Of a DNA stretch of 64,000 bases, positions 9,001-31,673 are shown piece after piece. A model generated the notes under the pieces. It was given only the letters and a program-made list of their open reading frames with translations. It had not been told where the DNA came from and did no database searches. The DNA is taken from the NCBI GenBank assembly GCA_030062745.1, contig CP099839.1, positions 44,714,796-44,778,795 on the forward strand. Direction: 5' to 3'. Position numbers and translations under genes: made by a program. Source of the stretch: Capitulum mitella (lineage: Eukaryota; Arthropoda; Thecostraca; Pollicipedomorpha; Pollicipedidae). How positions within the stretch are numbered: position 1 is the first letter of the stretch; every line of letters begins with the position of its first letter.

Positions 9001-12000
9001 TACATAAAGTTTTATGGCGTTGCCTTCGTTCGTTCTCTCGCAATCTTGAAACCGTTATTTTTGGCAGACATTTTCAGTTCCCCTTAACAGGGCCAAAGTG
9101 GCCTGAGGTGCCCCCACAAAATGTTGTCTGGTTCTGCCCCTGAGCAAAACAGAATTAGGAATTTTCTTACAATACAAAGAAAGAATAGTGAGGGAACGTG
9201 ACCAAGTTTCGTGAAGCCGCGTCAGAACCCTGGAATTGACAAGCAAAAAACCCGCTGGGGTGGATTTAGTCCCCCCTGCTGGTAATGGATTGTATGTTCC
9301 CCAAAAAAGATTTAAGGCGGTATTATTTTTTTGTAAGTTGCCATTCGTATGATGTTAATCCAAGGGCGCTACATCCATAATGTGATGAAAGGGCTTCTGC
9401 CTAGTTACCAAGTCAGCAGATATTTGCATGATTTTCATACAAGGGCGATACATTAATAGTGTAATGAAAGGTCTTATACCTCGTTGCCAAGGCAGAAGAT
9501 AATCGCAAACACTGAGAAGGCAACATCTCGGCTGAGCTAGCGGACAATGGGTTTTCGGTGCATGAATGAATGGTTGTTACAAAATGGACCGTACATGGTG
9601 TCAGTTCGGACATGTACAGGAGTACAGTACGGGTCTGCCGAACCCATCCTTAAAAACGAAGAAATGAGAAACTTTAGCGCTAGCTTCGGTTTCACCTAGT
9701 CTGCATTGTAACTAATAACGGCATGCATGTCATAAAGCAGACGTCGTGAGCGAGCTGTTGATGGTTCCGTGGTGTATGACTGGTCACTCAGTTCAGTATG
9801 GCAGACTTCTCATAGCTGATGTTTAATGTTTCATCCTGCGACCGCCTGAAGGGTTAGAAGCCCTCCCCACTGTATTTTGCTGACTGCGTCCGAACCGTGA
9901 ACGTTGATATCACCAAACTTTCAGACCCCAGCATGTAATCCGTTTCGTACATGACAGTCCTAAAACTCTTCCTGTATGTTAAACGTTGACAAAATTGGAA
10001 TCCATATAGTCCATGATTACGGCGATTTGCTCCTACCCAAGCCGGCCGTCGTGCGACAGGTAATATAGGTATTTCTCCAATAAAAACATGGAAAAGGACA
10101 TCATCTTGCGAATAATTCAACAGGCAGTCAAATGGTGTAAACGTTGAGTTCTTTCTGTGATCAGATTTACCAGAACAAGAATACCCTGGCGGCCTAAAGT
10201 TTATAAATTTTGAAGGTTGTCTCATAACTGAGATTCACCGGAGTAGCAGATCTTTAATACTTTACTTATACAACACCACTGATGAATTATGCATTGCAAG
10301 TGTCAAAACCATGGCAGTTTGACCTAAACCGTAGTGTTTATGACCCGACATACATTTTACAAACCGGCCCGCCGAGCGCTATTGGCCGGGTCGGCTGACG
10401 CCGGCGCTGGCGGACGACGCCGTCAGGGAGCTGCTACCGTTCGCCAAACTATGCACCTATCTACTTCGCCAAACTGTGTACTAACTATGCATGAGCCATG
10501 CAAAACGTCAGGAGCGTGTCGCGCGACGTGCATATGGCCGCAAATGCTAACTGTACCAGGACAGAGAGAGAGAGAGAGAGAGAGAGAGAGAGAGAGAGAG
10601 AGAGGGAGAGAGAGAGAGAGAGGATGGAGAGAGAGAGAGAGAGAGAGAGAGAGAGAGAGAGAGAGAGAGAGAGAGAGAGAGAGAGAGAGAGAGAGAGAGA
10701 GAGAGAGAGAGAGAGAGAGAGAGAGAGAGAACCTAATCTGTATAGGTCAGAGCGGTTAAGTGTACGATCCCATTGTTAGAGAGAGACTAGCCATCACTGC
10801 CACGCATTTGGCCACATCTTAACCAGAAGTTGCAAAAATCTTGTAGCTTACATCAAAATAGCTTTTTATGTAGTTAAGAGATCATCAGTTGCGCAGCCAG
10901 TATCTTAATAGGACAGAGGGATGGACAGGGGTCGAAGCTTAACCCTATTCCCGGCAGGGGGGGCGGAGTCCGCCCCCCCTCGGGTTTTTTGCTTGCCAAT
11001 TCCAGGCTTTTTAACGCAGCTTCACGAAACTTGGTCACTTTTCCTAGCTATTCCTTCTACGCGCCGTGACAAAATTTCGAAATTCTATTTTGCTCAGGGG
11101 CGGAGCCAGGCAACGTTTTTGGGAGGCACCTCAGGCCTTTTTTGGCCATGTTAGGGGTAAAAGGAAAATGTCTGCCAAAAACAGAGTTTTTAAGATAGAA
11201 CTTAAAACTTTATATGGATGTATAGCTAAACAGCTGGGCAATGTGCACATGCAATTTTGTTTATCTGAGGTCACTTTACAAGGTCAGGTCAAGGTCAAAA
11301 GTCAAAATTTGTTTTTTCGCAATAATTTCGGCGCCGTTTTTTTAAATGCCAAACTCGGAATATATATGACGTAGAAAGATGCCCTCTACTTGTGTACCAA
11401 GTTTCAGCTTGATATCAGGTCGGGTCACGGAGCTATGACCTAAAATGTCAATGCGCGTACCCTATATCGCAAAAGCCAAAAAATGAATTTTTTGGAATAG
11501 AGTGAATTTAATCGATTAAAAACGTTTACAGATAATATTGAATGCACACAACATCATTCCAGGTGACCCCAAGGTCACTGGACGTCATGTAAGGTCAAAG
11601 GTCACAAGTTGATCTGAAGAACGTGTGACCATGACAGTTCCCCCTTTTTCATGTTCCTGGCACCGCCTATGCTAACATTATACAAACATTGTAATGCGAT
11701 TTGTACTTCTTTAGCATAACATGACTAGCAGAAGCTAAAAAAGTGTTTTGGCCTCTTTTGTTCATTCAGTTATTAGAAAACTAGTCCCCCTATTTTTGAA
11801 ACCCTGTGAACGCCCATGAATTTTCTCAAAATTTCAAATTTGCATACCCATGGTAAAAGCCCTATTTATAATCTCTCGATTCATGCCAGTTTCATCGAAA
11901 TCGGTCCATAAACAACGGAGTTATAAGAAGTCAAAAAGTACCCCCCATTTTGACATTTTTGCCCCCCTGTATCCGCAAATTTTAAAATTTTGAAAATTTC

Positions 12001-30467: not shown

Positions 30468-31673
30468 CCCTATTCCCGGCAGAGGGGCGGAATTCGCCCC
30501 CCCTCGGGTTTTATGCTTGCCAATTCCAGGCTTTTTAACGCACCTTCACGAAACTTGGTGGCTTTTCCTAGCTATTCCTTCTACGTGCTGCGACAAGATT
30601 TCAAAATTCTATTTTGCTCAGGGGCGGAGTCAGGCAACGTTTTTGGGAGGCACCTCATACCATTTTTGGCCATGTTGAGGGTAAAAGGAAAATGTCTGCC
30701 AAAAACAGAGTTTTAAAGCTAGAACTTAAAAATTTATATGGATGTATAGTTAAATGGGTGGGTTAATGTGCAGATGTAATTTTATTTATCTGAAACCATT
30801 CTACAAGGTCAGGTCAAGGTCAAAAGTAAAAATTTGTTTTTTCGCTATAATTTCGGCGTCATTTTTTCAAATGCCAAACCCGGAATACATATGACGTAGA
30901 AGGGTGCCTTCTACTTGTGTATTAAGTTTCAGGTTGATATCAGGTCGGGTCACGGAGCTATGATCCTAAAATGTCAATGCGCGTACCCTAATTCGCAATA
31001 GTCATAAAATTAAATTTTTGAGATAGAGTAAATTCAAATGATTGAAAACGTTTACAGATAATATTAAATGCACACGAGATCATTCCAAGTGACCTCAAGG
31101 TCACTGGAGGTCATTTAAGGTCAAAGGTCACAAGTTGATCTGAGAAACGTGTGACCGTGACAGTTCCCCCTTTTTCATGTCCCTGGCACCGCCTATGCTA
31201 ACATTATACAAACATTGTAATGCGATTTGTACTTCTTTAGTATAACATGACTAGCAGAAGCCAAAAAAGGGTGTTTGCCTCTTTTGTTCATTCAGTTGTT
31301 AGAAAACTAATCCTCCTATTTTTGAAACCCTGTGAACGCCCATGAATTTTCTCAGAATTTCACATTTGCGGACCCATGGTAAAAGCCCTATTCATAATCT
31401 CTCGATTCATGCCAGTTTCATCAAAATCGGTCCATAAACAACGGAGTTATAAGAAGTCCAAAAGTACCCCCATTTTGACATTTTTGCCCCCTGTATCCAC
31501 AAATTTCAAAATTTTGGAAATTTCTTTCCATAAAAAATGTAGTTTACGTGACGGCAAATCGATTGCCGTTTGTTGCGATGAAATCGGACGAGTAGTTCTC
31601 GAGATCTCGGGGGGGGCCGAATCCGCCCCCCTGCCGGGAATGGACCATACCTTCTGGCCCTCCGGGAATAGGG
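30468..31673 (+). mobile_element. Family B miniature element, copy 2, with TGAA target duplication
   Basis: 1206 bp, collinear with copy 1 along its whole length with scattered substitutions and small indels. Ends are the same CCCTATTCCCGG/CCGGGAATAGGG. It is flanked by TGAA on both sides (30464-30467 and 31674-31677) instead of TTAA. No coding capacity. Confidence 0.82.
31118..31130 (+). promoter_or_regulatory. DR1 nuclear-receptor-type site in family B copy 2
   Basis: Same AGGTCAAAGGTCA at the homologous place in the second full copy, unchanged although the surroundings have diverged. Confidence 0.55.

Follow-up and report, generated by a model that had tools for sequence, protein, structure and literature searches.

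The window analysed here is a stretch of 64,000 nucleotides from Capitulum mitella (assembly GCA_030062745.1, contig CP099839.1, positions 44,714,796 to 44,778,795 of the forward strand). It contains two full copies of a non-coding repeated element of about 1.2 kb, very probably members of a piggyBac-type miniature family. The exact 12-mer CCCTATTCCCGG occurs at four positions in the window (10943-10954, 12141-12152, 30468-30479 and 31662-31673) and is found, inverted, at both ends of copy 1 (10943..12152, forward strand, 1,210 bp) and of copy 2 (30468..31673, forward strand, 1,206 bp). The two copies are 90.8% identical. A preliminary description of this DNA had reported two full copies with identical, perfect 12-bp termini, which is confirmed by the four exact 12-mers, chance being excluded by the genome counts given below. 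It had also reported different flanks for the two copies, and direct reading bears out both pairs: copy 1 lies between target-site duplications of TTAA (10939..10942 and 12153..12156), the rule in this family, while copy 2 lies between TGAA on the left (30464..30467) and TGAA on the right (31674..31677). Beyond these four bases, the left and right flanks of copy 2 differ from one another.

The two ends of the element are built differently. On the left of copy 1, the terminal inverted repeat (10943..10954, forward strand, an exact 12-mer) has a G+C-rich palindrome immediately inside it (10956..10980, forward strand). On the right, the terminal inverted repeat (12141..12152, reverse strand, again an exact 12-mer) is followed inwards by a 20-bp spacer (12121..12140, reverse strand) and then by ATTCCCGGCAG in inward reading, which repeats the inner portion of the terminal motif (12110..12120, reverse strand); both assignments come from reading the copy alongside the consensus anatomy. 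In copy 2, the duplicated inner motif is likewise read directly at the right end (31631..31641, reverse strand).

Abundance, coding capacity and age of the family

The 477-Mb assembly, comprising 16 contigs, was searched for the terminal 12-mer. The two strands carried 7,473 and 7,374 occurrences (14,847 in total), compared with 12 and 15 (27 in total) for a control in which the 12-mer was read backwards, and a chance origin of the 12-mers is therefore excluded. Among the first 100 listed ends, 72 made up 36 pairs at a spacing of 1.1-1.35 kb; extrapolation from this pairing suggests that roughly five thousand copies are full-length and have the exact 12-mer at each end. Fifty full copies were read; their sources were the window itself and those parts of contig 1 that surround the ends listed first. 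The exact 12-mer was present at both ends in 39 of these, in a sample selected for at least one exact end. Three exact ends with odd flanks and no adjoining element (L051, L059 and L061) were left out of this tally.

An alignment, consensus, distances and tree were prepared from the first 42 of the 50 copies. Element length ranged from 1,164 to 1,238 bp, and the longest open stretch was 75 amino acids in the consensus and 69-109 amino acids in six single copies. The absence of coding capacity, uniform length and high copy number are those of a miniature inverted-repeat transposable element (MITE), albeit one larger than most. Thirty of the 42 copies cluster within 9%, with the remaining 12 more divergent. 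A young group of about 17 copies lies some 2-4% from the cluster consensus and includes copy 1 (2.3%). The rest of the cluster, at about 5-7%, includes the older copy 2 (6.8%, with 4.3% on its own branch of the tree). The closest pair differs by 2.4%, which, together with the age groups, argues for a family history of past bursts rather than present-day movement, at least among the 42 copies compared. The earlier suggestion of a recently active family thus finds no support as far as very recent activity is concerned.

End structure and class

In the 42-copy consensus, the left terminal repeat is followed with no gap by the G+C palindrome, while the right terminal repeat is followed by 20 other bases, after which the inner terminal motif is repeated with a similar palindrome. 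Both ends of piggyBac from T. ni (LE35 and RE63) carry a palindromic 19-bp inner repeat, to which the right end adds a 17-bp insertion and a duplication (PMC7351741). The likeness between these asymmetric ends was judged by eye, and concerns a trait described for T. ni piggyBac, not one shown to define the superfamily. The published hallmarks of piggyBac elements are a CC[C/T]T terminus, ends of 12-19 bp and TTAA (PMC2872659). The present element has a four-base TTAA duplication, 12-bp ends CCCTATTCCCGG with a CCCT start, and asymmetric ends with a palindromic inner repeat. We therefore hold with considerable confidence that both copies are members of one large, non-coding, TTAA-inserting miniature family of about 1.2 kb that is piggyBac-type and mobilised in trans, the class of the transposase itself being inferred. 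The family is an additional, very abundant member of an established element type.

Under this model, a piggyBac-type transposase supplied in trans would excise elements at their CCCTATTCCCGG ends and reinsert them, almost always at TTAA, through a staggered cut of four bases, and gap filling would then produce the TTAA duplication on both sides. TTAA is also the target of Sola3 elements. Another TTAA-targeting superfamily, Kolobok, was considered as the home of this family, as it would account for the TTAA duplication. However, Kolobok ends start with two purines (AG in the table for Xenopus, in the part of PMC6004289 cited here), whereas CCCTATTCCCGG ends start with CCC, and the asymmetric palindromic ends resemble those of piggyBac instead. 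Judged on end sequence, membership of Kolobok is very improbable.

Insertion sites

TTAA was present on both sides in 42 of the 50 full copies (36 of 42 in the alignment subset). Two of the 50 had matched flanks other than TTAA, namely TGAA/TGAA in copy 2 and CTAG/CTAG in L035. Six had unmatched flanks: GTAA/TTAA (L016), CTAA/TTAA (L018), TTAG/TTAA (L062), CGGA/TTAA (L068, in which the left end next to CGGA is poorly aligned), AAAA/TAAA (L047/L058) and CTCG/CCAG (L001). Further evidence comes from a truncated copy, L049, whose insertion host is a P-element-like repeat; three further members of this repeat represent paralogous empty sites. At the exact base at which the L049 element ends on its right, all three have TTAA and the same onward sequence. 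The L049 copy lacks its left end, and some 260 bp of the host sequence are gone as well, leaving the right junction alone for comparison. The preliminary description had taken the TTAA flanks of copy 1 as a signature of piggyBac integration, and the 42 copies and this set of empty sites agree with it: the family inserts nearly always at TTAA. When the flanks of copies 1 and 2 were compared with the window and 48 loci, no convincing repeat was found (best match 33 bp, E 0.001), and these sequences thus offer no usable paralogous empty site for copy 2.

Relaxed target choice had also been proposed, on the basis of the TGAA flanks. A complete genome-wide list was made of ends in which both outer bases of TTAA are changed and the middle TA is kept. 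CTAG accounted for 34 of the 54 ends in this class. The list contained 12 pairs at a distance of 1.2 kb, comprising eight CTAG/CTAG, two ATAC/ATAC, one ATAG/CTAG and one GTAC/ATAC; the remaining 30 ends were unpaired within the list. The CTAG/CTAG copies are L035 (C1:3040352), C3:17748707, C4:14592324, C6:8086455, C9:6235812, C9:19546299, C16:8145625 and C16:18173537. The ten matched CTAG or ATAC copies are spread over six contigs, and are counted as copies, so that they may include duplicates of one insertion. With ten exact matches, each four mutations away from TTAA, mutation is no reasonable source. Non-TTAA insertion is therefore real but rare (in the class in which TA is kept, it concerns about a dozen of several thousand copies), and CTAG is the apparent preferred secondary target. 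Relaxed target choice accordingly stands as a rare event attested by the matched CTAG (eight) and ATAC (two) copies, while the TGAA flanks from which it was proposed are not yet well supported as an example.

One tentative and rather doubtful account is that the target is recognised chiefly by its central TA, perhaps with palindromic symmetry. CTAG would then be a true secondary target despite loss of the outer T and A, which have been deemed required from the structure of T. ni piggyBac, and TGAA, in which the central T is missing, would be accepted more rarely, in conflict with what has been stated for Pokey, piggyBat and piggyBac. Non-TTAA duplications of natural piggyBac elements have already been published for Pokey (PMC3849761) and others (PMC10813416); the CTAG that appears in the cited part of PMC3073922 belongs to primers. 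The thousands of nearly complete copies represent a natural record of piggyBac-type insertion sites and of the rate at which TTAA is missed. The matched CTAG and ATAC duplications indicate that natural insertion tolerates changes of the outer bases, a point relevant both to structural explanations of TTAA targeting and to piggyBac vectors that insert off target. Aside from this off-target record, the element is an ordinary abundant mobile element.

The TGAA flanks of copy 2

Of all 14,847 ends, 420 are flanked by T followed by a base other than T. The first 100 listed of these comprised 49 TCAA, 26 TGAA, 11 TAAA and 14 others. Apart from the window's own end, 25 TGAA ends were listed, and the partner was sought for 20 of them, as well as for 16 TCAA and four TAAA ends. 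For TGAA, the partner was TTAA in 13 cases, TGAA in one (L085) and GTAA in one, with five not found. The TCAA ends had ten TTAA partners and one TTTG, again with five not found, and the TAAA ends three TTAA partners and one CATA. As TTAA partners predominate, most of the flanks examined are one-sided changes that followed insertion.

This prevalence of one-sided changes favours parallel mutation as the origin of the copy 2 flanks, a scenario of insertion at a normal TTAA followed by independent mutation of each flank to TGAA. The share of copies expected to acquire a matched single change of any kind by mutation alone is about 0.25% at a divergence of 4.3% and 0.6% at one of 6.8%; over some five thousand copies this corresponds to roughly 10 to 30 matched cases. 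On the other side, matched TGAA was found in two of the 16 copies with a known partner (the window copy and L085), compared with about 0.18 expected (P ∼0.013), falling to one of 15 without the window copy (P 0.15). This test has small numbers and was framed after the data had been seen, and its null is crude, spreading the four non-TTAA flanks among 30 partner flanks over 12 single changes. Furthermore, TCAA is the commoner change, yet it was matched in none of the 11 copies with a known partner. We regard parallel mutation as a substantial possibility, but one that we would not favour.

Gene conversion, which the preliminary description had raised as a way of making the flanks alike, was weighed together with formation of copy 2 by recombination between copies. 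Unmatched flanks such as TCAA/TTTG and TAAA/CATA do resemble those of rearranged or heavily changed copies. However, conversion between four-base flanks 1.2 kb apart is hard to picture without homologous surroundings, and in copy 2 the sequences beyond the four flank bases differ between the two sides. Either event is improbable here.

For copy 2, we lean slightly towards an original insertion at TGAA; the alternative is a TTAA copy whose two flanks both underwent the same change. Two points tell against insertion at TGAA: TTAA makes up 13 of the 15 located partners of TGAA ends, so that this step is weakly supported, and TGAA violates the rule, given in the Pokey paper, that the non-TTAA sites of Pokey, piggyBat and piggyBac retain the middle T and A (PMC3849761). 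That same rule would make an insertion at TGAA, if true, a notable one. It is nevertheless made less novel by a survey whose piggyBac duplications include TCAA, TAAA and TATG, which likewise have no middle TA, although these are read there as mutations (PMC10813416).

Search for an autonomous partner

The preliminary description had pointed to an active autonomous partner elsewhere in the genome. There are at least 118 genome matches to the piggyBac transposase domain PF13843 (DDE_Tnp_1_7, DDD type), some of which are pieces of one copy, and several frames reach about 600 amino acids. Right flanks were read for 25 matches: 19 from the top 20, the one at C10:12946348 and five that rank lower. 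Eight of these copies belong to one family and 14 to another, while three (L129, L134 and L135) belong to neither; the right end was visible in 18 and not in seven. The two families (L112-L128, L130-L133 and L136) are well preserved, and some of their frames are about 600 amino acids long. In the flanks of L120 and L133, a stretch resembling the interior of the element lies beyond the piggyBac end, and these stretches are taken for old neighbouring copies of the element.

Three findings count against the assignment to a piggyBac-type miniature family. The family end CCCTATTCCCGG, allowing two mismatches, was present in none of the 25 right flanks examined, the left flanks and the remaining matches not having been read. 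The right ends that were visible in the two piggyBac families are instead CCCATTAACGCCC or CCCTTTAGTGCCC, to within a base, flanked by TTAA. Finally, a length of 1.2 kb is on the large side for a MITE. The claim of an active partner is thus left without backing from the right flanks of the 25 transposase copies. The autonomous element may be extinct or missing from the assembly, or one of the PF13843 matches not read may represent it.

A P-element-like transposase was also tried as the partner, as the open reading frame next to one copy of the element (L044/L049) contains a TNP-like RNase H domain: the PF21789 match (E 9.9e-13) is directly beside the right end of the element. P-like sequence, however, runs on both sides of this 153-bp element fragment, and 4.8 kb read from each of three other P-like copies contained neither such ends nor element sequence. 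The candidate was rejected as having next to no probability, the P-like copy being the host into which the L044/L049 element was inserted. The P-element-like repeat is an independent repeat family (TNP-like RNase H, PF21789; L069-L071 and L049 743-1493), with frames of up to 376 amino acids; a 126-amino-acid piece of it has 46 genome matches, 29 of them at 90% identity or above.

Other features of the window

An old, degraded left-end fragment lies at 9043..9286 on the reverse strand, 75-78% identical to the first 254 bp of the element and lacking an intact end; it belongs to the same or a related family. By comparison, the end fragment preceded by TGAA that had been placed in 'BRE1 intron 8' (TGAACCCTATT only; 53648..53658, forward strand) was not accepted as a member. 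Its sequence, TGAACCCTATTTCACG, shares only CCCTATT with the element, 7 of the 12 end bases, before departing from it. A sensitive self-search of the window with copy 1 or copy 2 gave no match at 53648, and such 11-mers within one mismatch are expected by chance 1.14 times per window.

Another dispersed repeat is present in several copies in both orientations, about 65-84% alike, at 1-4000, 7950-9045 and 17339-18445. TTAGG is the usual telomere unit of arthropods, and runs of a TTAGG-type repeat (GGTTAGGTTAGG) occur at 61157-61230 and 62479-62598. Together with a G+C content of 47.5% and the 16 contigs, these runs would tentatively fit a barnacle or another crustacean. Tandem arrays also lie at 33725-34028, 49275-49471 and 57706-58089, with unit lengths of about 38, 26 and 27 bp, respectively.

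Comparison with known systems

The terminus of T. ni piggyBac is CCCT, as is the start of the present ends. The two also share TTAA, asymmetric ends, a palindromic inner repeat and a right end with an insertion and a duplication, although T. ni piggyBac is autonomous and the present element is non-coding (PMC7351741). The same paper infers that the first T of TTAA is irreplaceable, whereas the CTAG and ATAC copies described here replace that T.

Odd duplications, some without the middle TA, have been described for piggyBac-like elements in Chilo (PMC4273485) and other animals (PMC10813416), so that an odd middle of the duplication is already in print. They are given there as a few exceptions, however, and the Chilo table covers the 5' flank only. 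CTAG, present here, is not among the odd duplications described in the cited parts of those two papers.

The piggyBac-like CMITE elements of Acropora corals are similarly non-coding, with CC[C/T]T ends and TTAA duplications, and are related to a piggyBac-like transposon (PMC2872659). They are about 100 bp long, compared with about 1.2 kb here.

A further close system is mPok/Pokey of Daphnia, in the piggyBac superfamily, whose MITEs are likewise large, at about 750 bp, have ends of 12-16 bp and are mostly flanked by TTAA duplications (PMC3849761). An autonomous partner is known for Pokey but not for the present family, and the ends of the two differ, as judged without a base-by-base comparison. 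In the Pokey table, about 12% of duplications are of other kinds (TTAT, ATAA and CTAA), whereas the clearest alternative in the C. mitella family is CTAG, in which both outer bases are changed, and its copy number is far higher.

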